NCBI GenBank assembly: GCA_001899445.1
Contig: MPOA01000006.1
Coordinates: 558,001-622,000 of the forward strand
Direction: 5' to 3'
DNA from: Candidatus Desulfopertinax cowenii
Lineage (GTDB): Bacteria; Bacillota; Desulfotomaculia; Desulfotomaculales; Desulforudaceae
Length of the DNA stretch: 64,000 nt
The notes beneath the pieces are model-generated. The model did no database searches, was not told where the DNA came from, and was given only the letters and a program-made list of their open reading frames with translations. Positions 16,979 to 56,645 of this stretch are shown one piece after another; positions within the stretch are counted from its first letter, which is position 1, and every line of letters begins with the position of its first letter. A program made the position numbers and the translations under genes.

Positions 16979-17500
16979 CTAGCCGAAGTCCGGCTCGATC
17001 AGGCCGTAGTTACCGTCCTTGCGCTTGTAAATCACGTTGACCTGCTGGTTCTCGGCGTTGGTAAACACGAAAAAGTTGTGCCCCAAAAGGTTCATCTGCA
17101 TGACGGCTTCCTCCACCGCCATCGGCTTGAGCGCAAACCGCTTGGTCCGCACAATCCGAAAATCCTCTTCTTCGGGCGGCTCATCAGGGTAGGGCTGCCC
17201 CTCAGCCACCACCCGCCGGCGCAGCAACTTTCCCTTGTACTTCTCCAACTGCTTTTCAAGTTTCTCCACCACCAGGTCCACCGAGGCGTACATGTCCCCG
17301 GTGGTTTCCTCGCCCCGCAGAATCATCCCGTCGATCGGGACGGTGACCTCCACGCGGTGGGAATCCTTTTCGACGGTCAGAGTCACCTGAACCTCCCCGA
17401 AATGCTGTTCAAATTTCTCGAGCTTACGGAGCCTTTTCTCCACGTATCCCCGGAGCGCAGGCGTCACCTCGATGTTTTTTCCGCGAATGTTGATTTGCAC
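16979..17500 (-). CDS. hpf: Long-form ribosome hibernation promoting factor
   Basis: Long HPF that dimerises 70S ribosomes into inactive 100S particles in stationary phase. The N-terminal domain (INIRGKNIEVTPALRGYVEKR) has the YfiA-type fold. An acidic linker PDEPPEEED leads to the C-terminal dimerisation domain (VRTKRFALKPMAVEEAVMQM, HNFFVFTNAENQQVNVIYKRKDG, split here only for length). I prefer GTG at 17500, with AAGGGG about 9 nt upstream, because HPF proteins start near this point. An alternative GTG at 17530 adds ten residues. It lies upstream of secA, an order common in Firmicutes. Confidence 0.95.
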   Translation of the reverse strand: MQINIRGKNIEVTPALRGYVEKRLRKLEKFEQHFGEVQVTLTVEKDSHRVEVTVPIDGMILRGEETTGDMYASVDLVVEKLEKQLEKYKGKLLRRRVVAEGQPYPDEPPEEEDFRIVRTKRFALKPMAVEEAVMQMNLLGHNFFVFTNAENQQVNVIYKRKDGNYGLIEPDFG

Positions 17501-17647
17501 CCGTTTCAACCCCTTTCCCTGGAGTTTCACGATGCCCCCTCAGGATAATTATATTCCCACTCCAGCAAGGAAAATCCTGCAGATACCAGCAAAAAGCAGG
17601 ATTGTCGAAAACAGGATTTGTAGAATCGCTAATTGGGAACAATTTCT

Positions 17648-17708
17648 TGTGGATAAGGTGGATAAATTTGTGCATAAGCCGATTCTGAAGCCTTGAGGTT
17701 GTGGATAG
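17648..17708. promoter_or_regulatory. Cluster of four DnaA-box-like 9-mers
   Basis: In the hpf-comFC gap there are four same-direction 9-mers: TGTGGATAA (17648-17656, exact consensus), GGTGGATAA (17657-17665, directly abutting), TGTGCATAA (17669-17677) and TGTGGATAG (17700-17708). Each differs from the TTATCCACA consensus complement by at most one base. The surrounding DNA is AT-rich for this genome. No dnaA or dnaN is near, so it is not a normal oriC; DnaA titration or DnaA control of hpf are possible. Confidence 0.7.
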
Positions 17709-17759
17709 GCCGCTGATCGATGTTGGCTTCTGTCGGATTTACTTATTCTGGAGTCGGAA

Positions 17760-18491
17760 TCAATTCCTTCCGGCGACAAAAACCGCCCCCAGCACCCGCG
17801 CGGCGCCCGCGGCCCGCAGCACCCGGGCCGCCTCGGAGAGCGTACTCCCGGTAGTGAACACGTCGTCCACCACCACCAGCGTGCGGCCCCGGATTCCCCC
17901 GGCTTCGTCGAGCACCGCGAAGGCCCCGGACAGATTGGCCAGGCGCTCCGCCCGCGAGAGCCCCGCCTGGGCCGGGGTTTGGCGCACCTTGGCCAGAACG
18001 GTACGCACCGGAATCCCTAGTTCCCGGCTCACGGAGTTGGCCAGGAGCACCGCCTGGTTGAAACCGCGCCGCGTAAAGGTCTCCTCGGTAAGCGGGACCG
18101 GCACCAGGAGATCGGCGGTGTAGTAGGCCTGGTGCTGACGGACCGCCCGGGCCATCAGTTCGCCCAGCGGGCCGGCCAGTTCCCGGGCCCCGCCGTATTT
18201 CAGGCGGTGCAGCGCGTCCCGCAACACACCCTCGTACGGTCCGTAGGCCCGGCAGCGGTCAAAGGGCCACCGGGTCACGCGGCACTCCGGGCAGTAGGTG
18301 GAAACGAAGGCCGGACTACGGCTGAAACGCCCGCAACAGTTGCAGTACGGCTGCCCGGACAGAGCCCGCATGCCTTCCCGGCAGACCAGGCAAATTTCCG
18401 GCTCCTCCCCGGCCCCGCAGACCGGGCAGCCCGGCGCCCCGGGGAACACCAGGTTCACCAGCCCGTTCCAAACGTCGCGCAGGCTAAACAC
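17760..18491 (-). CDS. comFC: ComF family phosphoribosyltransferase-like protein
   Basis: A 243-residue ComFC/GntX protein. It has an N-terminal zinc finger (CPVCGAGEEPEICLVC, then CNCCGRF and YCPECR), then a type I PRT domain ending in the PRPP loop VVVDDVFTTGSTLSEAA. In competent bacteria it helps process incoming DNA in the cytoplasm. The start is the GTG at 18491, with GAGGAGG about 8 nt upstream. It overlaps the stop of the GGDEF gene by 8 nt, implying coupling. A longer open frame to 18755 runs inside the GGDEF gene and is not used. comEA/comEC are 13 kb away, so the competence genes are scattered. Confidence 0.92.
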   Translation of the reverse strand: MFSLRDVWNGLVNLVFPGAPGCPVCGAGEEPEICLVCREGMRALSGQPYCNCCGRFSRSPAFVSTYCPECRVTRWPFDRCRAYGPYEGVLRDALHRLKYGGARELAGPLGELMARAVRQHQAYYTADLLVPVPLTEETFTRRGFNQAVLLANSVSRELGIPVRTVLAKVRQTPAQAGLSRAERLANLSGAFAVLDEAGGIRGRTLVVVDDVFTTGSTLSEAARVLRAAGAARVLGAVFVAGRN

Positions 18492-20190
18492 GGATCCGGC
18501 CTCCTCCAGCGCCCAGAACCCCGGTCCCAGCCCCGACCGGCTCCGCCAACCAGTGCAGTTCACTTTCGGCCTTGCGGAGCAGTTCGTCCGCCGTCGCCCC
18601 GTCGAGCGGCGACACAGCCAGGCTGAAACGCACCGCCAGCCGGAGGCGTTCCTCCCGGCCCTCGACCCCGAAGGAGATCTGCTCCACTGCCCGCTGCAGC
18701 CGCTCGGCCGTTTCGGCCGCCCGGATTTCCCCGGTGTTGGGCAGGAGCAATCCAAATTCGTCGCCCCCCCAACGAGCGACCATGCCCGTGGGCGGTACCC
18801 TTTCCGCCAGCAGCCGTGCGATTTGGGTCAGGGCGTGGTCCCCGACCTTGAACCCGTACCGGTCATTCAAAACCCGCAGGCCCTCAACGTCGAAAAGCAC
18901 CACCGCCAGCGGCAGATCTTGGTTCCGGGTCCGGGTTAGTTCGGCCTGCAGCTGCCGCCAGAAGCGATACCGGTTGGGCAGCCCGGTCAGGGGGTCGTGA
19001 CCGGCCAGCTTGTTCAGGCGGTGGTGCAGCCGGGCGTTGTCCACCGCCACCGCCAACAGCCCCCCGACGATGGTCAAAATGTGGAGGTTTGGCGCGTGAT
19101 AGACGCCCGGACGCCGTTCGCCGATCACGAACACCCCCAGCACCTCGTCTTGATGCACCAGGGGAATGACGATCAACGACCGTAAAAACCGGGCCAACCC
19201 GGGCTCCCCCACCAGCAGCGGGTCGCTCCGGGCATCCGCGACCAGGCAGGGTTCCCTGGTTTGAGCCACCCAGCCGATGAGGCCCTCGTCGCCGTCGTGG
19301 ACGATGTCCTGCAGTTTGGCGGCGTAAGGGCTTTCCACCACCGCCGGGACAAACAGCCCGTGTTCCTCGGACCAGAGGTAGATCACCGCGGTATGATAGG
19401 GGACTATCCGCCTGGTTTCCCGCAGGATCAGGCCGAGCAGGTCGTCCGGACTGGAGCTAGTGCCCAGCCGGCGAGCCACCTCGTACAGAACGCCCAGTTC
19501 CCGGTTGTTCAGTTCGACCTGGACGTACCGCCGCAGGAAAAACTGGCCCACCAGGCTCAGGAGCAGCACCAGGAAGGCGCTGGCGAACCCGGCGCCGTGA
19601 TATACCAAGGCCACCAGGAAGCCGAGCGGCACCAGGAACAGGTAGGTGGACGCGTCCCAGACGAGCGCCTGGCGCCACCCGACCGGACCGATCCGGTGCT
19701 TGGGCAGCACGTAAACGTAGACCAGCAGATGGTTAAGCAGGAAGCAGGTGCCCGAGAAAACCAGCAGCGGGAGCACGTTGGCCAAGGTGAGCAATTCCCC
19801 GGGGTACGCGGCCCCGCCGCCTAACCGGTAGACCCAGTAGGCGCCGCACACGGCCAACACGCTCTGGGCGCTGTTGAACAGGGTGGTGCGCACCGGGTTG
19901 CCGCGGTTGGCGATCCCCTGGCCGAACATGGTACCCATGGCGGTCACCCAAGCGGCGGCCGCCGGCCCGAAAAGCAGGAAGGTGGCGAAGGTCACCGCAT
20001 AACCGCTGGAAAGCTGCCCGTGCGGGAAGCACACCACCAGCCACTCGGCGGCCATGGCCACCAGGATCAGCACGGCCAGCTCCATGCTGAAGTCCAGGTC
20101 AACCTGGGGGAAAAGCCGGGCCAGCAGTACCGTGCCCCCGATAACCACGACCCAAAGGTAAAGTATGTGCAACACCTTACCGGCACGCAC
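18484..20190 (-). CDS. Membrane-bound GAF-GGDEF diguanylate cyclase
   Basis: Predicted c-di-GMP synthase of about 568 aa. About six to eight membrane segments fill the first 200 residues (for example HILYLWVVVIGGTVLLARLF). A GAF domain follows (ELGVLYEVARRLG through VPLVHQDEVLGVFVIGER), then a GGDEF domain with HDPLTGLPNRYRF and the intact active-site loop ARWGGDEFGLLL. No RxxD inhibitory site is visible just before the loop. I choose GTG at 20190 with AAGGTGG 9 nt upstream; a TTG at 20295 is open but has no ribosome site. It is translationally coupled to comFC. Confidence 0.85.
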   Translation of the reverse strand: MRAGKVLHILYLWVVVIGGTVLLARLFPQVDLDFSMELAVLILVAMAAEWLVVCFPHGQLSSGYAVTFATFLLFGPAAAAWVTAMGTMFGQGIANRGNPVRTTLFNSAQSVLAVCGAYWVYRLGGGAAYPGELLTLANVLPLLVFSGTCFLLNHLLVYVYVLPKHRIGPVGWRQALVWDASTYLFLVPLGFLVALVYHGAGFASAFLVLLLSLVGQFFLRRYVQVELNNRELGVLYEVARRLGTSSSPDDLLGLILRETRRIVPYHTAVIYLWSEEHGLFVPAVVESPYAAKLQDIVHDGDEGLIGWVAQTREPCLVADARSDPLLVGEPGLARFLRSLIVIPLVHQDEVLGVFVIGERRPGVYHAPNLHILTIVGGLLAVAVDNARLHHRLNKLAGHDPLTGLPNRYRFWRQLQAELTRTRNQDLPLAVVLFDVEGLRVLNDRYGFKVGDHALTQIARLLAERVPPTGMVARWGGDEFGLLLPNTGEIRAAETAERLQRAVEQISFGVEGREERLRLAVRFSLAVSPLDGATADELLRKAESELHWLAEPVGAGTGVLGAGGGRIRV

Positions 20191-46466: not shown

Positions 46467-48437
46467 CTACTTGGTGAAGTTGAAGGTCGCCGTCTTGGTG
46501 GCGCCGTCCCACTCCAGCTCGCCGCCGAAGGCCATCTGGAGGCCGCGCAGGGTGGCGTAAGTGTAGTCGTTGATGATCATGCCGCCCTGGTCGACCGGCA
46601 CCTTGACGCCGTTGATGTAGATGGCGTTCTCGCCCATCGGGAAGGCCACGACCTTGCCGTCCTTCACGAAGTAGGCGGTCTTGGTCGCGGAATCCCAGCT
46701 CTTGGCCAGGCCGAGGACGTCAACCAGCAGGTTGACCTGCACCAGGGTGCGGCCGTTGACAACGGTCACGCCTTCGTCCCCGAGGGTGAAGGAGGTGGTG
46801 ACCACGGCCTCGTCGACCACGGTGGCGATGGCAACATTGGCCACAGCTTCCTCTGCGTTCTCAACGTTGACGGCATCGCCCAAGAGCCCGATTTCCAGGT
46901 CGCCGAGGTTCACACGGGCGTCCAGGTCGATCTCAACATCGGTAATCACGACAGTATCGATTCTGGTAGTCCGGCAGTTCGAAAGAGTAATGTCCAAAAC
47001 GCTGTCGTCATCCGTATTAATGGTGACATCGTCAATCTCAGTACCGTTCACTTCAACTGTCGGTTCGCTTGCCCACACGGCACCGTTCGACAACTCGAGA
47101 GACAAGGTACCGTTGTTGGTAGCGAAAGCATTCTTAGCAGTTTCAACGATGGTGATGTCGCCAGCGGCACGCGCCAAACCAACCGTAATCTCAGGCTTAT
47201 CCGCGGTTACACTGACTCTGTCCTTGATTTCGGCCAGTACGGCAGTCGCATCTGCATCTCCGCCAACCGTGACCTCAAGGTCACCGGCAACAGCATCGGC
47301 GGTAATGTTAACCGCGAGGGTGAGCTCAGCCTCTTCTACTCCATCGTCAAGGGCCACCCAAACGCTCTGCCCGTCATTGAACGTGTCAATTACACGTACA
47401 GCATCAGAACGACCGCCAACAACATTGTCGAACTCAACACCATCCGGCAGGTAGACAATCACGTCATTACCGGAGAACTCCGAATCACTTTCGAACTTTA
47501 TAGTATTCAACTCTACATTGGTGGCTCCAACATAAGCATCGTCTGCTTCGCTGTTTTCCTCTACCGAGACAGCGATATCAGCTTCGCCAACGTAAGCGAC
47601 TGTAATGGTGGTGTCGCCCATCAGATCGCCGTCAGTGCACCAAGCGTTAACCTCGAGTGCACCTTCCGGAGCATTCGGGAAAAGTGTGATCGGTAGGTTC
47701 TCAATGGTCACTTCCCCTGCAAAAGGAGAAGATTCGTCGAACGGACCCACTACCAAGGTCTCGTTGTCGTCGATCCGAGTAAGCGTAACGGTATCATCGA
47801 GACCGTACTTACCGCTCGGCGTTATACCGCTGGGATTTTCCCACTTTGCATAGCTACCCGGCAGTTCGAGGTAAACATACGCGCCTACGGCTGCGCCCGC
47901 GATGTTTTCCTCAAACGTAATATCGGCGATTTCCTTACCCTCGCCTGCGCTCAAGGTGGGGATGTTGTCGGTGCTAACGGTCAAAGAACCGTCACCCTTA
48001 GTCGCAACCAGAACGGAACCTTCCCACTTGTCAATCAGGTTGTTAGCACCATCAAGCCACCTTACGGTCACGTCTACATAGATGTCATCGTCTGCACCAC
48101 TACCAACAGTGACACTGTTGTCACCGGAGAAATTAATGGTATAGGCGGTGGAGGCATCTACAGGACCAAAGCTACGGCTGCTCTCCTCATCTTTGGTAAA
48201 CTTCACATCAGTGGGCAGATCAACGTCGACATAAAGACTTCCACCGCTGTATACTTCGTCGTCAACTGATACTCTGATCCAACCCAGATCAGTATCCTGA
48301 TCTTCAGGTACGTTCTGCTTAGCAGCGCTGGTTACGGTAATGGAATCTGCCGCAAACGCCGCCATCGGCAGCATGATGCTCAGCGCGAACACCACGGCGA
48401 TGATCAGCGCGATACGCTTGTTGCGTACTTTATACAA
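46467..48437 (-). CDS. Probable S-layer protein with C-terminal stalk (copper amine oxidase-like) domain
   Basis: A 656-residue acidic exported protein. Signal peptide IALIIAVVFALSIMLPMAAF ending AFA-AD; a long beta-rich, Asp/Val/Thr-rich body; and a C-terminal copper amine oxidase N-like repeat (VTVVNGRTLVQVNLLVDVLG, TYATLRGLQMAFGGELEWDG). The base composition is more AT-rich and the codon choice more even than neighbours, as for a highly expressed surface protein. No SLH domain, so anchoring would use another contact. Strong SD AAGGAGGGAAT and a leader of nearly 400 nt precede it. Confidence 0.8.
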   Translation of the reverse strand: MYKVRNKRIALIIAVVFALSIMLPMAAFAADSITVTSAAKQNVPEDQDTDLGWIRVSVDDEVYSGGSLYVDVDLPTDVKFTKDEESSRSFGPVDASTAYTINFSGDNSVTVGSGADDDIYVDVTVRWLDGANNLIDKWEGSVLVATKGDGSLTVSTDNIPTLSAGEGKEIADITFEENIAGAAVGAYVYLELPGSYAKWENPSGITPSGKYGLDDTVTLTRIDDNETLVVGPFDESSPFAGEVTIENLPITLFPNAPEGALEVNAWCTDGDLMGDTTITVAYVGEADIAVSVEENSEADDAYVGATNVELNTIKFESDSEFSGNDVIVYLPDGVEFDNVVGGRSDAVRVIDTFNDGQSVWVALDDGVEEAELTLAVNITADAVAGDLEVTVGGDADATAVLAEIKDRVSVTADKPEITVGLARAAGDITIVETAKNAFATNNGTLSLELSNGAVWASEPTVEVNGTEIDDVTINTDDDSVLDITLSNCRTTRIDTVVITDVEIDLDARVNLGDLEIGLLGDAVNVENAEEAVANVAIATVVDEAVVTTSFTLGDEGVTVVNGRTLVQVNLLVDVLGLAKSWDSATKTAYFVKDGKVVAFPMGENAIYINGVKVPVDQGGMIINDYTYATLRGLQMAFGGELEWDGATKTATFNFTK

Positions 48438-48835
48438 CCTAAATTCCCTCCTTGAATTGTGGTTTTAAACCCAATGTGCTCCGGTTTCCCGAGTGGGTCG
48501 GTTGCTGCGTAGAGGCTGCGATCGTTGGTTGACTGGTGTGCGTTTTCCCCGGTTCCGGCATCACCCCTTTCGTAAGGCTTGAATGTGTGCGCAGCGAATA
48601 AGGTGCTGCGGGATCTTCTATTGCACGGGCGGGAACCGGTCCCGACCCGTTACAATCGGTGTCCTTTAGGCATACAACTATACCAACTTCTGCATCATTT
48701 CCGGGATTCCTGCCGGGAATGGTGCATTTTTTCTTGGTTTTATGGTGCTTGGGTCAATTGGTTTGTCTTTCCCTGATTACCTGGTAAGTTAGACAGCGGC
48801 GGGCTGGCAAAAGTTCCGCGGGATGAGAAAATTTT
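48438..48835. other. Long intergenic leader before the S-layer gene
   Basis: 398 bp without a convincing gene. It holds a bulged GC stem near 48625-48650 (CGGGCGGGA / TCCCGACCCG), a strong stem-loop at 48692-48725, and the ribosome site AAGGAGGG just before the S-layer ATG. Probably most of it is a long stable 5' leader of the S-layer mRNA. A weak plus-strand frame near 48579 lacks any homology signal. Confidence 0.55.
48692..48732 (+). terminator. Plus-strand intrinsic terminator inside the S-layer leader
   Basis: A 13-bp stem with two GU pairs (GCATCATTTCCGG / CCGGGAATGGTGC) is followed by six U only on the plus strand. No plus-strand gene precedes it, suggesting an antisense or small RNA ending here. 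Confidence 0.6.
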
Positions 48836-51800
48836 TTACTCCAGCTTCTGCAGAAGGCGGTTCAACACGGCGGCCGTTTCGGCGCGCGTGAGGTCGGCGG
48901 CGGGGGCAAACCGGTCCGCGGGGCGGCCGCGCATGAGCCCGGCGGCGCAGGCCCGGACGACGGCGTCGCGGGACCAGGCGGGGATCAGCGGCCAGTCGGT
49001 GTACGGGGCGGTTTGGGCGGCGGCGGGGGCGGGCAGTTCCAGGCCGAGGGCGGCGGCCGCGCGGGCGAGGATCGTAGCGGCCTCGGCCCGGCTGATCCGG
49101 GCGGCGGGACGGAAGGTGCCGTCCGCGTAGCCGTTGATGATCCCGCGCTGGTGGGCCAGCGCGATCCGCGGCGCGGCCCAGGGGGGAATGGCCGCGGCGT
49201 CGGCGAAGGGCAGGGCGGGCGGTTTGGCGCCGGGCAGGCCCAGGAGGCGGGCGAGGAGCACGGTGAACTCGGCGCGGGTGACCGGGCGGTCTGGCCGGAA
49301 GGTGCCGTCGGGGTAACCGCGGACCAGGCCCCGGGCCAGCAAGCGCTCGATGTCGGCGCGCGCCCAGGAGCCGGCGAGGTCGGTCAGGGCGGCTTCGGGA
49401 CCGGCCGGGAAGTGGACCTCGCGGCCGGCCACGCCGCCGGTGGGGCCGTTTACCGCCACCAGCTGGCCGCGGGTACCGGCCCCAAAGGGCACCACCCAGT
49501 AGAAGGAGCCGTCGGAACCCAGTTCCAACCGGTTGAAGGCGGGTTCGCCCACCCAGGCGTACAGCCGGTCGGCGGTGGTCCGCCCGGAAACCACGTAGCG
49601 GTCCGACAGGGGCACGATGGCTTCCACGTGGAGCGCCGGTTCGGCTACCCCCGGTTTCGGGCGGGCACTCCCCCGGACCGCCACCGGGCCGCTGGGGCCG
49701 GTGAGGACGGTCAAGGTGACGGTCTCGCCGGGCACGAGGTCGCGGGGCGGCACCGGGAGGCCGTTCTTGGTGAAGGCGGCGTTGGCCGCCACCGGGTAGG
49801 ACTCACCGGCGGCGGTGCGCAGCACACCCTGCCCCCGGTCATAGGACCCGACCTGAATTTCGCGGCGGGCGGATTCGGCCACGTCGATCCGCCCGGCCTC
49901 CCGGGTGCCCGGCGCCAGGGTGACGCGCACCATCAGGCCGGGGGAGAGCAGGGCGGCGTCCCCGGCCAGGTCCCAGCGGTAGACCCGGGACCGCGCGGTG
50001 AGACTTAAGACGTGCAAGTGCCCCCGGTAGTCGGAGAGGTAGAGGGTGTCGGCGCCCGCGTAGACCAGCTGGCCGTAAAGGACCTTGGAATAGGCGGTGA
50101 TCCCGAGCACCCGTTCGGCGCCGGGCACCACCACGGCGAACACCAGGTCGCCGGGCTGGAGGGCGCCGAGGCCGGCGGCGCGGCCGTCCCGCTCCACCGT
50201 GATTCCGGGCAGGGCGGTGAGGCGCCGGCCGCCGGTGAACGTGAGGGCCCCGTCCGCGCCGGGTGCCTGGCGGAGGGTGCCCACCACCACGTGCTGTTTG
50301 AGCACCAGGTAGTTTACCTGGTTGGTATGCGGCGACAGCACCAGGCGGACGTCCACCCCCGGGAACAGGTACCGGGGCTCGGCCGCGGAGGCGGCGCCGA
50401 AAGGCAGGTCCACCCGGTCCCCGCCGACGACGGTCCGGGTCAGGCCGAGGGCGGCTTCCGGGCCCAGGACGTACTCCCGGTCGCGGTTTAACAGCCGGAG
50501 GCGGCCGGTACCGGGGGCGAAGGAGGCGAGCACGCCCCGCACCTCCCGGTAGTCGGCCTCCAGGCGCCAGAGGACCTGGGTGGACGGGTTCAAGTGCGCC
50601 CGCACGCCGGCCCCGGCCGGGATGCCCGCCGGGTCGCCGACCGGCTGCCCGTTGAGCAGTACCGGCTGGCCGGAGAGGAAATAGTACCCGCCGGTGCGCA
50701 AAGCCGGGTTGATCCGCACCAGGAGGGGCTGGTCCGGATGCGCGGGCAGGCATTTGGCCCCGTCCACCGGGACCTCCCGGGCCACCAGGAAGACCGCGGC
50801 GGGGTCGGCCTTCGGGCCGAGGAGGTAAGCGTCGGCCCCGGCCACGGCCCGGGGAAATGCAAGTTCCTCGTTCACGACGCTGGTGACGGTCCGGCCGGAA
50901 AGGCCCAGGACGGTGCCGTCCGCCAGGACCAGCTGGTTTTCGTCCCCGGCCGCCGCGACGTGCCGGGCCGGGGGCTGGCCGAACACCAGGGCGAAGTCCT
51001 GCACCGGGCGGGCGGTGCCGTCCCGCACCGCCCGGCGCACCGCCGCGCCCGCAACGATCACTTTGTACTCGCCCGGCACGGGGTCGGTGACGAGCACCTG
51101 TTCCACGTTGTTAACACCGTCCCGGACGCCGCGGCCCGCAAAGTCGTTGCCCAGGTATTCCGCGCCGTCCGGGGCGATCACCCGGAGGTCCAGGTCGTTC
51201 ACCAGGGCGCCGGCCGCCCCGGGGGCGGCCGGCGGGTCGGTCCAGGCCAGGGTGACCCTAAAAGGCGCGTCGGCGTGGGTCACCCGGAAGGTGTACGGGC
51301 GCTGTTCCCCCGTGGCCACGGCGTCCCCCTGCTTCCAATGGAAGGTTCCCTCCCGCAGGGCCAGCAGGGTGCCGGTGAGGTCCAGGAGGCCGAAGCCGCT
51401 CTCCGGGGACGGGAACGGCCCGTTCAGGGAGCGGGCCCCGTTGATCAGGAGCGCCTTGACGAGGGCGGCGGTGGGGACCGGGGTGTTTTGGTGTTTCTGC
51501 AGGTACTCCCGGACCAGGGCGGCCGCGCCGCCGGCCAGGGCCGCCGCCATGCTGGTGCCCTGCATCCGGGTGTATTCCGGGTGGGCGGCGAAGTTGCCCT
51601 CGACGAGGCTGGATTTGGCGGAAACGACGGCGCTGGCCGGCACCACCAGGTCGGGCTTCAGCCGGCCGTCGCCGGTGGGGCCGCGGCTGGAGAAGGAAGC
51701 CAGGGCGGCGGCGTCGCGGCTGTCCGGGCCGAAGGCGGGGCGGGGGGTTTGGCTCGCGCCCACCACCAGGGCGTTCTTGCTGTTGGCCTCCGGCGTGAGG

Positions 51801-52798
51801 GAGCTGGGGCCGGGGCCGTTGTTCCCGGCCCCGAACACCACCAGGAAATCGGGATAGTAGCGCACGAAGCGGTCCACCTGGGAGGCGGCGCCCAGGTAGG
51901 CGTTGGTGCGCCCACCCCAGCCGTTGACGTGGATGCGGGCGCCGGCCTCGTAGGCCGGGCGGAAGAGGGCGACCAGGTCCGCGGGCGGGTCGAGTTTCCC
52001 CTGCCGGTTGAGGAGGGACTGGATGAACAGGCTGGCCTCGGGGGCCACGCCCCGGTACTGTCCGCCGGAGGCCGCGCCGGTGCCGGCGATGCTGGCCGCC
52101 ATGTGGGTACCGTGCCCGATGGGGTCGGACGGGTCGCCCCCGGCGAAGGAGTTGAGGTACACGATCTTGGGCCTTTGGCCGGGGGTGCTGGCCAGGTCCG
52201 GGTGCACGTCGCTTAGCGAACCCCGGTCCAGGCCGCTGTCGGCCAGGGCGACGATCTGCCCGGCGCCGGCCAGGCCCGCCGGGGTGAGAAAGCCGGGCAC
52301 GTGCACCGGGGCGGCGGTGATCACGTCCCGGGCCCGGTCGTTCAGCGGCGCGGGCGGGGCGTAGGGCTCGATGTAGACGACCTCCGGGGCGGCGGCCAGC
52401 TCCGGCAGGCGGCCGGCGGGCAGGCGCACGCGCAAAGCCCGCCCCTCCCGCTCGTCCAGGCCCCGGAGGACCGTGCCGCCTAGGGCGCGCACCTCTGCCG
52501 CCACCGCGGTTTTGGCCGCGGGGGCGGAGAGGGACACGGTGACGGTGACCGGGCCGGCGGCCGCAGGGTCCAGGCCGGCGGCGAGCTTGTCCGCCCCGGC
52601 CCCGGGTTTTGCCCCTTTGCCGGCAACCGCGGGCCCGGCTTGCGGGGCGGGGGCCTCCGGAACGGCGGCCGGAGGAAAAGGCCGGCCGTCAGGGAGCAGG
52701 AGCCCGGCCAGGATAAGCAAGGCCAGGCCGACACCGGCCAAGGTAAAAATGACGCCTCTCCGGGACATTTGGGGCCAGATAATCCATCTTCGGCGCAT
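48836..52798 (-). CDS. SLH-anchored subtilisin-like serine protease
   Basis: A 1320-residue surface protease. A signal anchor (VIFTLAGVGLALLILAGLL) and a proregion with CVTVSLSAPA-like segment precede an S8 domain with catalytic Asp (IVALADSGLDRG), His (GHGTHMAASIAGT) and Ser (MQGTSMAAALAGGAAAL), plus oxyanion GAGNNGPGPSS. A PPC-like beta domain and several beta-rich repeats follow; three SLH domains end the protein (ARGLVRGYPDGTFRPDRPVT, QRGIINGYADGTFRPAARIS and a third with GLMRGRPADRFAP). It should bind pyruvylated wall polymer made by CsaB. Start ATG at 52798 with AAGGAAC upstream. Confidence 0.93.
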   Translation of the reverse strand: MRRRWIIWPQMSRRGVIFTLAGVGLALLILAGLLLPDGRPFPPAAVPEAPAPQAGPAVAGKGAKPGAGADKLAAGLDPAAAGPVTVTVSLSAPAAKTAVAAEVRALGGTVLRGLDEREGRALRVRLPAGRLPELAAAPEVVYIEPYAPPAPLNDRARDVITAAPVHVPGFLTPAGLAGAGQIVALADSGLDRGSLSDVHPDLASTPGQRPKIVYLNSFAGGDPSDPIGHGTHMAASIAGTGAASGGQYRGVAPEASLFIQSLLNRQGKLDPPADLVALFRPAYEAGARIHVNGWGGRTNAYLGAASQVDRFVRYYPDFLVVFGAGNNGPGPSSLTPEANSKNALVVGASQTPRPAFGPDSRDAAALASFSSRGPTGDGRLKPDLVVPASAVVSAKSSLVEGNFAAHPEYTRMQGTSMAAALAGGAAALVREYLQKHQNTPVPTAALVKALLINGARSLNGPFPSPESGFGLLDLTGTLLALREGTFHWKQGDAVATGEQRPYTFRVTHADAPFRVTLAWTDPPAAPGAAGALVNDLDLRVIAPDGAEYLGNDFAGRGVRDGVNNVEQVLVTDPVPGEYKVIVAGAAVRRAVRDGTARPVQDFALVFGQPPARHVAAAGDENQLVLADGTVLGLSGRTVTSVVNEELAFPRAVAGADAYLLGPKADPAAVFLVAREVPVDGAKCLPAHPDQPLLVRINPALRTGGYYFLSGQPVLLNGQPVGDPAGIPAGAGVRAHLNPSTQVLWRLEADYREVRGVLASFAPGTGRLRLLNRDREYVLGPEAALGLTRTVVGGDRVDLPFGAASAAEPRYLFPGVDVRLVLSPHTNQVNYLVLKQHVVVGTLRQAPGADGALTFTGGRRLTALPGITVERDGRAAGLGALQPGDLVFAVVVPGAERVLGITAYSKVLYGQLVYAGADTLYLSDYRGHLHVLSLTARSRVYRWDLAGDAALLSPGLMVRVTLAPGTREAGRIDVAESARREIQVGSYDRGQGVLRTAAGESYPVAANAAFTKNGLPVPPRDLVPGETVTLTVLTGPSGPVAVRGSARPKPGVAEPALHVEAIVPLSDRYVVSGRTTADRLYAWVGEPAFNRLELGSDGSFYWVVPFGAGTRGQLVAVNGPTGGVAGREVHFPAGPEAALTDLAGSWARADIERLLARGLVRGYPDGTFRPDRPVTRAEFTVLLARLLGLPGAKPPALPFADAAAIPPWAAPRIALAHQRGIINGYADGTFRPAARISRAEAATILARAAAALGLELPAPAAAQTAPYTDWPLIPAWSRDAVVRACAAGLMRGRPADRFAPAADLTRAETAAVLNRLLQKLE

Positions 52799-52991
52799 CG
52801 GGTCGTTCCTTAAAGTCGCTCCTTAGGCGATTTTGGGAACATTTTATCACAGCGCCCGGAAGCTTGTCGCCCCCGCCCGGCGCTGGAAATAATTAAACCC
52901 TTTCCAATTGGAAGGAAATGTACTAGATTATTAACCAGGTAAAGCATCCGGAAATATTGCAGAAATAAATAGCAGAAATGTTAACTGGGCC

Positions 52992-53020
52992 GGAACTTTT
53001 TCCCTTGGGGAACCATCTAA
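52992..53020 (+). promoter_or_regulatory. ECF-type autoregulatory promoter for the sigma factor gene
   Basis: GGAACTT (52992-52998), 17-bp spacer and TCTAA (53016-53020) match RpoE/SigW-like ECF promoters (GAACTT and TCTAA type). It lies about 50 nt before the sigma gene start. Confidence 0.6.
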
Positions 53021-53068
53021 AGAGTTGACGGGAAGAGTTTCCGTCCGCCCAGGGGAGTGATTCCTCCT

Positions 53069-53683
53069 TTGGACGACGTAAAGAAGCTGGTCCGGCTGGC
53101 GCAGCGGGGTGATACAGCCGCCTTCGGGCAGCTGGTCCGACAGTACCAGGATAAGATCTATGCGCTTTGCGTCCGCCTGTCCGGCAACCAGGCGGACGCG
53201 GAGGACCTGGCACAGGAAGCTTTCGTGAAGGCGTTTTACGCTTTGCGCGGCTTCCGCAACGAGGCGGATTTCGGTACCTGGATGCACCGGATCACGGTGA
53301 ACCTGTGGATCAACGCGCGGCGGCGGGAGAAACCGACGGTTTCCCTCGACGAGCCGGTGCGCACCGACGAGGGCGAGGTGCAGCGGGAGCTGGCCGCGGC
53401 GTCCGAGGAGCCGCAGGAGGTGCTGGAGCAAAAGGCGCTTCAGCACCTCCTGCAAAGGGCGCTGGCAGAACTGTCCCGGAAACACCGGGCGGTACTGGTG
53501 CTGCGCGAAATGCAAGGATACAGCTACGAGGAGATTGCCCGGGTTCTGAATTGTTCCCAGGGCACGGTGAAGTCCCGCCTTAACCGGGCGCGGGCGGCGC
53601 TGAAGGAAAAGGTGCGCGCGCTGGCCGGTGAGGCAGGAGTGGCGCTTCCCGGGGAGCGGAAGCGCCGGGGTGGTGCTGACTAG
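53069..53683 (+). CDS. ECF RNA polymerase sigma factor, SigW/RpoE type
   Basis: A 204-residue ECF sigma factor. Region 2 (AAFGQLVRQYQDKIYALCVR, DAEDLAQEAFVKAFYALRGF, FGTWMHRITVNLWINARRRE) binds the -10 element and core enzyme. Region 4 (KHRAVLVLREMQGYSYEEIA, SQGTVKSRLNRARAALKEK) binds the -35. TTG at 53069 has AGGGGAG at a workable distance; GTG at 53057 overlaps that site. Its stop overlaps the GTG of the anti-sigma gene. Typical signals for this class are envelope stress or antimicrobial peptides. Confidence 0.93.
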   Translation: MDDVKKLVRLAQRGDTAAFGQLVRQYQDKIYALCVRLSGNQADAEDLAQEAFVKAFYALRGFRNEADFGTWMHRITVNLWINARRREKPTVSLDEPVRTDEGEVQRELAAASEEPQEVLEQKALQHLLQRALAELSRKHRAVLVLREMQGYSYEEIARVLNCSQGTVKSRLNRARAALKEKVRALAGEAGVALPGERKRRGGAD

Positions 53684-54750
53684 TGAAGTGTCCAGAGGCC
53701 AGACAACTTTTTTCGGTCCACCTGGACGGGGAACTGGCCCCGGCCGAGGCGGAAGTGTTGGGCGCCCACCTGGCGGAATGTAAGCCGTGCGCGGCCGAAC
53801 TGGAACTGGAGCGCGCGCTGACCAAGGCGCTGCGGGGTTTCGCGGCGCCGAGGCCGGCGCCGCCCGGGTTCGCCGGGGGCGTGATTGCGGCGCTCGAGGC
53901 GCGGCGGCAGGGCCGGTTGGCGCGGTTGGCGGCTGCCGCCGGCCGGTGGCGGCGCGGCCTGGCGGTGGCCGCGGCTTTCCTGTTGATCGTGACCGCTTCC
54001 CTGGGTTATGGGGTGCCGCAGTGGCTGGGCCGGACCCCCTTGGTGGCCGTGGACCCGCCGGACAAAACGGGGGCGCAGGTGGCGCCGCCGGGACCGGGAG
54101 CGGGACCGGGAGCGGACGTGAAGCCGGAGAGTGGTGCTCCGGCAACCGGGGGATCGAGCGGAAAACCCGGCCCGGGCGAACCGGAAGCGGAATCCGGCCC
54201 GGCTCCGGGGTCCGGCGAAGCCGGGAAAACGGCGGCCCCGGTGGAAAACGGAACGGACCGGGAACCGGAGCGGGTGATGATCGCCGACGGGCCAGACCCG
54301 GAACCGAAGGTGTTCCTGAACCAGCCGCGGCGTATTTCCAGTACCTTCTTGAAGTTGAACGTGGCTGACCTGGAACAGGCGCGGGATAAGGCCGTTGCCC
54401 TGGCCAAGGAGCACGGTACGCCCTACCAGGCGCAGGGCGCAGGTGACGGTACTTCCACCGCGGTGCTGCGGTTCGATGTGGACCCGGCCCGGGCGGAAGG
54501 GTTTGTGAATCACTTGAGCAAGCTGGGCCTGGTGGCCCACCGGCAGAGCGACCAGTGGGAGATCACGGGGCAGTTCTCGGCCGCGCTGGCGGAGTACCAG
54601 GCCCTGCTGACCCGGCGGGAGCGGACGTTCGACCCTGACCAGCGGGCGGTACTGGATAACGAGATCGCCGCCCTGGAGCGGCAGCTGGCCGAGTGGGACC
54701 AGGACGCCCGGCACCACATCGTAGTGCTGATGCTGCAGCAGGAAAACTAA
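53683..54750 (+). CDS. Membrane anti-sigma factor with zinc-finger and DUF4349-like sensor
   Basis: A 355-residue regulator. The zf-HC2 anti-sigma domain shows HLDGELAPAEAEVLGAHLAE then CKPCAAE (H-x3-C-x2-C type). One membrane helix (GLAVAAAFLLIVTASLGYG, residues about 92-110) follows. The outside part has a Pro/Gly-rich linker (about 120-200) and a coiled or alpha/beta domain (STFLKLNVADLEQARDKAVA, VLDNEIAALERQLAEWDQ) resembling DUF4349. It should hold the sigma factor until stress. GTG start overlaps the sigma stop (TAGTG). A terminator hairpin follows. Confidence 0.85.
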   Translation: MKCPEARQLFSVHLDGELAPAEAEVLGAHLAECKPCAAELELERALTKALRGFAAPRPAPPGFAGGVIAALEARRQGRLARLAAAAGRWRRGLAVAAAFLLIVTASLGYGVPQWLGRTPLVAVDPPDKTGAQVAPPGPGAGPGADVKPESGAPATGGSSGKPGPGEPEAESGPAPGSGEAGKTAAPVENGTDREPERVMIADGPDPEPKVFLNQPRRISSTFLKLNVADLEQARDKAVALAKEHGTPYQAQGAGDGTSTAVLRFDVDPARAEGFVNHLSKLGLVAHRQSDQWEITGQFSAALAEYQALLTRRERTFDPDQRAVLDNEIAALERQLAEWDQDARHHIVVLMLQQEN

Positions 54751-54813
54751 AGTTTTCCCGGCCGGGAAACCGGAAGCGATAGCGGTACCAAGACGGCGGT
54801 ACCAAAGCGCGTT

Positions 54814-54839
54814 GCGCCCTGGGGTATACCCCAGGGCGC
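54814..54839 (+). terminator. Hairpin after the anti-sigma gene
   Basis: Perfect 11-bp stem GCGCCCTGGGG/CCCCAGGGCGC, loop TATA, followed by GTTTAG. Strong stem but weak U run, 63 nt past the stop. Works on both strands. Confidence 0.65.
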
Positions 54840-54964
54840 GTTTAGTGAAACCGGCTGACTTTTAATTCCTTTCATGTAGGTCCTGCGCACCAAGAGACGG
54901 TAACCCGTCTTGAGTGCGGGCGGCGGCGGGCGGCGGCCGGTAAGTAAGAGCGTCAGAGTTGATG

Positions 54965-54993
54965 AAACCCCGGGGTTAGAAATCCCGGGGTTT
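54965..54993 (-). terminator. Hairpin overlapping the stop codon of the pyruvate-kinase-like gene
   Basis: A perfect 10-bp stem AAACCCCGGG/CCCGGGGTTT with the TAA stop (54976-54978) in its loop. Only three U follow on the minus strand, so it may slow or protect rather than stop the transcript. Confidence 0.5.
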
Positions 54994-55551
54994 GCAAATG
55001 ATCTCGCGGATTTTCAGGTCGAAGAAGTGCTGGGAGTGGGCCGGACTGATGACGCAGGCGGTGTCGGCGCCGGTGGCGCTGCCGGCGATGCAGACCACGT
55101 CCTCCCCGGGCGGGGTGAGCCCGGCGTCGGCGGCCATTCCGGCAATTTCGGCACAGACCTTCACCCCCTGGCCCAGCAGCCGCAAGGTGGCCGCCACGAT
55201 CTCGGACGGATAGATACCCTGGAACTTGAAGCGCAGGGCACGGTCGATCCCGGCCAGGAGGTGGGTGGTGGTTAAAAGCTTCACCCCGGCGGCGGTAAGT
55301 TTCGCCCGCATCTCGGGGGACATCTCGTCCTCCCCGGGCTTCGCGAAGCCCGCCTGGTGGGTGACGCAAACAATCTCCAGGTCGGCCAAGCCGGCGTCGC
55401 CAGCGGCATGGGCGGCGAGTTTCTCGGCGGTGTGCCCCCGGTGCGAGGCGACGATGACCCGCTTGATACCCAGTTCGCGGGCGCGGGCGAGCGCGGCCTG
55501 GATGGTGGCGTCAGTGTTGGCGGGGCCTTTAGCGGGCCAGTGCATGGACAT
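54976..55551 (-). CDS. Stand-alone pyruvate kinase alpha/beta (C-terminal) domain protein
   Basis: A 191-residue protein corresponding to the C-terminal alpha/beta domain of pyruvate kinase, without the catalytic barrel. It contains NTDATIQAALARARELGIKR, VIVASHRGHTAEKLAAHAAG and VVCIAGSATGADTACVI. Such free domains are common in Clostridia next to unrelated genes; in full enzymes this domain binds effectors. ATG at 55551 has GGGAGGTG upstream. It follows mbl at a distance of 62 nt, so it may be cotranscribed. Function unknown. Confidence 0.88.
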   Translation of the reverse strand: MSMHWPAKGPANTDATIQAALARARELGIKRVIVASHRGHTAEKLAAHAAGDAGLADLEIVCVTHQAGFAKPGEDEMSPEMRAKLTAAGVKLLTTTHLLAGIDRALRFKFQGIYPSEIVAATLRLLGQGVKVCAEIAGMAADAGLTPPGEDVVCIAGSATGADTACVISPAHSQHFFDLKIREIICKPRDF

Positions 55552-55613
55552 GTTTTCACCTCCCAAGTCACCATACTTTAATTTCAAATCTGTTTCTCAC
55601 CTGACGCGGCTCC

Positions 55614-56645
55614 CTACATTACGCGGCGGAAGAGTTTATTATTACTGGACTGGGGCAGGTAGTTCAGCATGGTGAGGGCGCGGCCGGTGCCGAGGGCCAC
55701 GCAGGAAATGGGGTCGTCGGCCAGGACGGCCGGGATTCTGGTCTCCTGGCTGATCAGGAGGTCCATGCCGTGCAGCAGCGCCCCGCCGCCGGTGAGAATG
55801 ATGCCCTTGTCCACCAGGTCGGCGGCCAGTTCCGCCGGGGTGCGCTCCAGGACATCCTTCACCACGTCCACCACCGCCTGCAGCGGCTCCTGGATGGCTT
55901 CCCAAACCTGGACGGTGGACAGCTCCACCGCCTTGGGCAGACCGGTCATCACGTCGCGACCGCGGATGGAAATCGACCGCGCCTCGGCCCGGCGCGGATA
56001 GGCGGTGCCGGCCTCCAACTTCAATTCCTCGGCGGTCCGCTCCCCGATCAGCAGGTTGAACTCGCGGCGGGCGTAACGGGCGATGGCCTCGTCGAACTTG
56101 TCCCCGCCCACCTTGACGGAGCTGGCGCAGACGATGCCTCCCAGCGAAAGCACGGCCACGTCGGTGGTGCCGCCGCCGATGTCCACCACCATGGAGCCGG
56201 AGGCCTGGGAGATATCCATGCCTGCGCCCAGGGCGGCGGCCAAGGGCTCCTCGATCACGTGCGCCTGGCGGGCGCCCGCCTGGATGGCGGCCTGCCGCAC
56301 CGCTCGCTCCTCCACCCCGGTCACCTCGGCGGGGATGCAGATCATGATCCGGGGGCGGAATAAGTAGCGGCGCGCGCCCACCTTGGCGATGAAGTAACGA
56401 AGCATCTTTTCGGTAACGTCGAAATCGGCGATCACGCCCTCCTTTATGGGGCGCATGGCCACGATGTTGCCGGGGGTGCGCCCCAGCATGCGCCGCGCCT
56501 CCGTGCCGACCGCGAGGATCTGGCCGGTGTCCTTGTTGATGGCCACTACCGAGGGCTCACGGAGAACAATGCCTCTGCCCTTCACGTAAACCAGGACGGA
56601 GGCCGTGCCCAGGTCGATGCCAATGTCGGGTGCGAAGTTAAACAC
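55614..56645 (-). CDS. mbl: MreB/Mbl-family rod-shape protein
   Basis: A 343-residue bacterial actin. Phosphate loops IGIDLGTASVLVYVKGRGIV (in part) and VVDIGGGTTDVAVLSLGGIV, adenosine loop ILTGGGALLHGMDLLI, and PRIMICIPAEVTGVEERAV are standard. It guides lateral wall synthesis at the membrane. Its place after spoIIID supports the name mbl, as in Bacillus. ATG at 56645 begins MFNFAPDIGIDLGTA. A 197-bp gap separates it from spoIIID. Confidence 0.94.
   Translation of the reverse strand: MFNFAPDIGIDLGTASVLVYVKGRGIVLREPSVVAINKDTGQILAVGTEARRMLGRTPGNIVAMRPIKEGVIADFDVTEKMLRYFIAKVGARRYLFRPRIMICIPAEVTGVEERAVRQAAIQAGARQAHVIEEPLAAALGAGMDISQASGSMVVDIGGGTTDVAVLSLGGIVCASSVKVGGDKFDEAIARYARREFNLLIGERTAEELKLEAGTAYPRRAEARSISIRGRDVMTGLPKAVELSTVQVWEAIQEPLQAVVDVVKDVLERTPAELAADLVDKGIILTGGGALLHGMDLLISQETRIPAVLADDPISCVALGTGRALTMLNYLPQSSNNKLFRRVM

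Follow-up and report, generated by a model that had tools for sequence, protein, structure and literature searches.

A four-box DnaA array with a predicted Spo0A box upstream of hpf, conserved in Clostridia-type Bacillota

The gap between comFC and hpf in the window (the whole analysed stretch of 64,000 nucleotides from Candidatus Desulfopertinax cowenii) carries four DnaA boxes that point in one direction, whose arrangement recurs in Clostridia-type Bacillota, often together with a predicted Spo0A box at a fixed distance. We consider it probable (roughly two chances in three) that these boxes form an extra-oriC DnaA-box cluster of fixed architecture, which is built into a Spo0A/sigma-H regulatory region and combines DnaA titration with a regulatory role. 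How DnaA is controlled outside the origin has been studied in detail in E. coli and B. subtilis, and little is known of it in anaerobic spore-formers. An earlier note on this DNA had drawn attention to the boxes; the fixed geometry, the predicted Spo0A box and sigma-H promoter and a second locus are additions to it.

The array in the comFC-hpf gap

The features of the region, in the order of their coordinates in the window, are the following:

16979..17530, - strand: hpf, long-form ribosome hibernation promoting factor (PF02482 and PF16321)
17548..17580, - strand: predicted sigma-H-type hpf promoter, GCAGGATTTT - spacer - GGGAATATAAT
17603..17609, + strand: predicted Spo0A box, perfect TGTCGAA (TTCGACA in the hpf sense), 38 bp past box 1
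17614..17625, - strand: conserved TTCTACAAATCC footprint between the array and the Spo0A box, with ACAAATCC invariant in seven aligned genomes
17648..17656, - strand: DnaA box 1, TTATCCACA, perfect, of the four the closest to hpf (TGTGGATAA at 17648 on the + strand)
17657..17665, - strand: DnaA box 2, TTATCCACC, one mismatch, abutting box 1 (GGTGGATAA at 17657 on the + strand)
17669..17677, - strand: DnaA box 3, TTATGCACA, a perfect match to TTATNCACA, 12 bp from box 2 (TGTGCATAA at 17669 on the + strand)
17700..17708, - strand: DnaA box 4, CTATCCACA, one mismatch, 31 bp from box 3 (TGTGGATAG at 17700 on the + strand)
17731..17737, + strand: degenerate Spo0A-like TGTCGGA (TCCGACA in the hpf sense), upstream of box 4, of presumed role
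17760..18492 (start approximate), - strand: comFC-type phosphoribosyltransferase gene (PF00156), the 3' end of which adjoins the array gap

A SecA gene is also found among the neighbours of the array. Scored against the DnaA-box consensus TTATNCACA, the four boxes occupy 61 bp (17648-17708), all of them in the sense direction of hpf and with spacings of 31, 12 and 9 bp. The earlier description of four same-direction boxes was therefore correct in number, positions and common direction, and so was the remark that two of them (boxes 1 and 2) directly abut. It had distinguished one exact box and three single-mismatch variants; the exact one stands, and TGTGCATAA matches TTATNCACA perfectly as well, so that there are two perfect boxes and two with one mismatch. 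The host gap (235 bp) is AT-rich as claimed, with 43% GC against 64% GC for the surrounding window, and 20,000 shuffles of the gap yielded at most two same-strand boxes per 61 bp (one mismatch allowed) versus the four observed.

Across the genome (1.78 Mb on six contigs, 99.96% complete) perfect TTATNCACA boxes occur 14 times, about as often as the reversed pattern (16), and two pairs of perfect boxes lie less than 50 bp apart: one in the hpf gap and one in oriC, just upstream of dnaA. The full array is present in a single copy, and a scan of the genome for equal clusters, as proposed in the earlier note, found none elsewhere, the sole other close pair being that at oriC. The suggestion that chance clustering is unlikely is borne out by the shuffles, the genome counts and the conservation described below, and chance was rejected on these grounds. 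With up to three mismatches allowed, the three-box core was recovered at one further genomic place, G000:C6:715733 (L003:15733-15762), some 6.6 kb away from where dnaA starts. This degenerate copy, TTATCCACAGAGTTATCCTCCTGATCCACA, has three mismatches and is located apparently just past the stop codon of a + strand reading frame.

The array lies outside the origin, in keeping with the earlier note: its distance to dnaA/oriC is 134 kb (7.5% of the genome), and the GC skew does not switch sign across the site. A secondary origin was rejected on the basis of the dnaA position and the skew. The characteristics of a chromosomal oriC (location at dnaA/dnaN, an unwinding element and a skew switch) were not found for the array, and oriC-type boxes are located at dnaA instead. 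What the array does share with the extra-oriC DnaA-box clusters of the B. subtilis type is clustering outside oriC beyond chance, in an intergenic and evolutionarily maintained position. The presumed oriC (L001:1110-1145, upstream of dnaA) was seen to be consensus-poor, with two perfect TTATTCACA 12 bp apart and a few one-mismatch boxes. Along the window, the GC skew is positive at 48001-56000 (8 kb, high GC) and shows a negative trend in the remainder.

Conservation, neighbouring genes and a second array at tsaD

The same four boxes, with spacings of 31, 12 and 9 bp, were recovered from hpf relatives in public genomes and from same-genus genomes, with Desulforudis-type genomes among those that have the array ahead of hpf or csp-hpf; conservation in relatives, by which the earlier note had wished its proposal to be judged, thus extends far beyond the genus. 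In an alignment of seven genomes the boxes appear as near-invariant blocks, and the changes within them fall mostly on degenerate N or end bases. Box 1 is TTATCCACA in five of the seven and has one mismatch in the remaining two, and box 2 is perfect (TTATACACA, TTATGCACA or TTATCCACA) in four of the six aligned relatives, with changes at the degenerate N or the last base. The 12-9 spacing of boxes 3, 2 and 1 is kept across the phylum, and a box at -31/-32, the position of box 4, was found again in most hpf-type arrays. Further conserved blocks in the alignment include: ACAAATCC, TTTCGACA, GCAGGATTT and a GGGAATAATAT-type element (the sigma-H-like promoter). In Desulfotomaculum-, Desulfovirgula-, Thermincola- and Geosporobacter-type loci, too, hpf is preceded by the 12-9 core plus a third box.

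Throughout the phylum, the three-box core TTATNNACANNNTTATNCACATTATNNACA (one mismatch) was encountered in 114 of 249 genomes and the reversed control in none (0/249), where the array fractions are descriptive because the pattern was picked after viewing the family and the genomes were sampled. Relative to hpf, 42 of 121 arrays (79 genomes) are positioned within 10 kb upstream, 41 of these 42 co-directional with hpf, and 2 of the 121 are near dnaA. The collection of 135 distinct arrays comprises 54 of the hpf type, 43 of the tsaD type and 38 unassigned ones. For many hpf genes of other Bacillota an upstream array is absent. We regard the array as an old and probably working control point and not as a product of chance; no published description of it was found within the open-access literature searched. 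Several Bacillales arrays with the 12-9 core were observed at loci without a detected tsaD or hpf (L206, L208, L209, L212-L214, L217, L219-L222).

The genes upstream of the hpf-type array are usually comFC (its 3' end) and sometimes fliS-fliT or others; downstream follows hpf, or csp-hpf, or an amino-acid ABC transporter and then csp-hpf, and the next downstream gene is usually co-directional. At the loci where csp intervenes, hpf has a sigma-H-like promoter of its own and no array there. The slot is conserved and the adjacent gene variable, which argues against an exclusively hpf-specific role. Such a role is also disfavoured by the intervening csp, or ABC transporter plus csp, and by the sister array 3' of tsaD; a strict hpf-promoter model, which was among the candidates considered, is weakened by the intervening genes. 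The amino-acid ABC transporter genes between the array and csp-hpf were seen repeatedly and in distant genomes (L166, L167, L168, L171, L172, L173).

Many genomes contain two arrays: besides the one in the comFC-[csp]-hpf slot there is another close to the 3' end of tsaD (gcp). Of the remaining non-hpf arrays that were fetched, most follow immediately on the 3' end of tsaD within the tsaE-tsaB-rimI-tsaD operon and are oriented in antisense to tsaD, and the candidate explanation that the second array per genome represents oriC was rejected for this reason. The tsaD array is also present in Bacillales genomes, and at the gcp/tsaD site of B. subtilis DnaA binds strongly in vitro, with a preference for the ATP form (PMC4447404). 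In the five complete genomes that have both arrays these are located on opposite replichores, the hpf array 7-15% and the tsaD array 15-19% of the genome length away from dnaA. The six complete genomes with one array type only have it at 16-39%, and 16-39% is likewise the range for hpf-only genomes, of which there are three. Within 1.5 kb of tsaD no such array was found in three same-genus genomes (one of the loci ends at a contig edge), and a tsaD array in the genome studied here was accordingly rejected for the flanks examined; a two-site titration system would therefore not be intact in this genus.

The predicted Spo0A box and the sigma-H-type promoter

The core 0A box of Spo0A is TGTCGAA (PMC3485338). 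An exact TTCGACA was found past box 1 in 35 of the 54 hpf-type arrays, the assignment as Spo0A box being based on this seven-base core: in 32 cases it is located at 35-39 bp (+65..+69) and in three at 26-27 bp, which is a shift of about one helical turn. The same interval of the 43 tsaD arrays does not contain it once, and when these stretches were shuffled the count averaged 0.19 and never exceeded 2. CGACA cores recur in the hpf-type arrays at offset -58 (15/54) and at -88 to -90 (13/54), and the TTCTACAAATCC footprint could possibly be a second, degenerate Spo0A site. A Spo0A gene was detected in 69 of the 72 array-bearing genomes tested, including the genome studied here (match 1.9e-46); this co-occurrence fits and is not discriminating, because sporulation is general in these groups. 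The region thus combines the two properties of Spo0A-controlled regions that were considered, a TGTCGAA core at a non-random position and an organism that encodes Spo0A, and the fact that the fixed box is limited to the hpf-type array favours a regulatory role.

Scanning for sigma-70 promoters returned no hpf promoter on the - strand, and a sigma-H pattern was matched. A sigma-H-like site precedes hpf at 41 of 80 loci, versus a shuffled expectation of 0.28, and is wide-spread among Clostridia-type Bacillota. This predicted site is in line with the sigma-H dependence of hpf in B. subtilis, as described in passages of PMC12421865. In the lineage studied here, the array, the Spo0A box and the sigma-H promoter are stacked directly upstream of hpf.

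Titration, regulation and known systems

The mechanism that we propose starts from the architecture (box4 -31- box3 -12- box2 -9- box1, in one direction), which appears to be kept at one slot in Clostridia-type Bacillota with a putative Spo0A box joined to it at fixed distance. Cooperative binding of DnaA to the array is very likely; binding as such is suggested by the box pattern and by the counterpart at gcp, which DnaA has been shown experimentally to bind. By analogy with the clusters of B. subtilis, the array would tie up some of the available DnaA and so restrain initiation. At the onset of stationary phase or sporulation, Spo0A~P would influence this nucleoprotein complex as well as the next downstream promoter, presumably the sigma-H-type hpf promoter here and the promoter of csp or of the ABC transporter in relatives. 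Titration and transcription control, the two roles proposed in the earlier note, could each or both be served by the array, and we place most weight on the combined role. Titration is the natural first function, as B. subtilis without its six clusters initiates early (according to passages in the reviews PMC5295017 and PMC13220808), and the fixed, phased Spo0A box at the hpf-type array alone argues for a regulatory complex as well. Points against this combined reading are that boxes 2 and 4 are one mismatch off the consensus, that the distance to the origin varies, that the strong DnaA sites listed for B. subtilis include none at hpf/comFC and that no tsaD array was found in the examined flanks of the genus. 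A gene-regulatory role is, in addition, made less convincing by the changing identity of the gene beside the hpf-type array. More tentatively, and at somewhat less than even odds, the array could be a composite switch of DnaA and Spo0A that is widely conserved and located outside the origin. In it, a phased complex of initiator and sporulation regulator at the comFC-[csp]-hpf slot would sense how far replication and sporulation have come and would adjust both the availability of DnaA and the stationary-phase genes, and the sister array at tsaD, on the other replichore, would work without Spo0A.

If the array merely sequestered DnaA, the neighbouring genes and the Spo0A box would be incidental. 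That the neighbouring gene differs between genomes, that the sister tsaD array is a known B. subtilis cluster, that five complete genomes have the two arrays on opposite replichores and that deletion of the B. subtilis clusters advances initiation would all agree with this. Pure titration is, however, not expected to give a fixed Spo0A box, leaves its constant offset and helical phase in 35 of the 54 hpf-type arrays unexplained, and sits poorly with a footprint that extends to the hpf promoter in the seven aligned genomes; we consider it unlikely. Rather doubtful, too, is the reading that DnaA, together with Spo0A, serves specifically to control the transcription of hpf or csp-hpf and would in this way couple ribosome hibernation to the replication status. 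The stacking of array, Spo0A box and sigma-H promoter before hpf, the usually co-directional downstream gene and the known function of DnaA as a transcription factor in B. subtilis (PMC4447404) speak for it, but where csp intervenes the sigma-H-like promoter that hpf retains is not accompanied by an array, ABC transporter genes intervene in several genomes, and many hpf genes of other Bacillota lack the array.

The few loci per genome, the fixed box arrangement and the positions off oriC on both arms recall DARS1/DARS2, and an element that alters the nucleotide state of DnaA in the manner of DARS or datA, beyond merely binding it, was therefore considered. The one-directional boxes with their tandem 9/12 spacing, and the reported absence of DARS, datA loci and IHF from B. 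subtilis (PMC13220808), make this quite improbable. To a chance cluster, or a secondary or relict replication origin, we assign next to no probability: the box density is comparable to that of the genome's oriC with its two perfect boxes, but conservation and controls exclude chance, and a relict origin is contradicted by the steady sign of the GC skew, by dnaA/oriC being elsewhere and by the mere 2 of 121 arrays near dnaA.

The DARS1/DARS2 and datA loci of E. coli are like the array in being few non-coding DnaA-box loci outside oriC with conserved architecture, and probably differ from it in the arrangement of the boxes. The extra-oriC DnaA-box clusters of B. subtilis are given, in passages of PMC5295017 and PMC13220808 (citing Okumura 2012), as gcp/ydiF, ywlC, ywcI, yydA, trmE-jag and sda-yqeG. 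Like the array they consist of intergenic DnaA boxes outside oriC, and the cluster at gcp has its positional equivalent in the tsaD array, on the 3' side of the gene. What would set the array at hpf apart from them is its fixed 31-12-9 geometry and the phased Spo0A box, and the hpf/comFC slot does not figure in the list of strong sites (PMC4447404). A site of fixed geometry across much of the phylum, together with its gcp/tsaD counterpart, suggests that extra-oriC DnaA clusters are ancestral in Bacillota, and the phased Spo0A box would provide a concrete link between replication control, entry into sporulation and, in the lineage studied here, ribosome hibernation.

Passages of PMC12421865 on the sigma-H-dependent hpf promoter of B. 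subtilis, which likewise precedes hpf, mention no DnaA array or Spo0A box. The promoter of sda, a sporulation checkpoint gene that is activated by DnaA in B. subtilis, is similar in that DnaA binding in front of a gene is tied to the control of sporulation; the gene is a different one, and sda acts via kinases on the phosphorylation of Spo0A (PMC5295017), whereas here the predicted Spo0A box is part of the site itself. Spo0A and DnaA sites also share one region in the oriC of B. subtilis (PMC5295017), where they partly overlap, whereas at the non-origin locus described here they are 35-39 bp apart.
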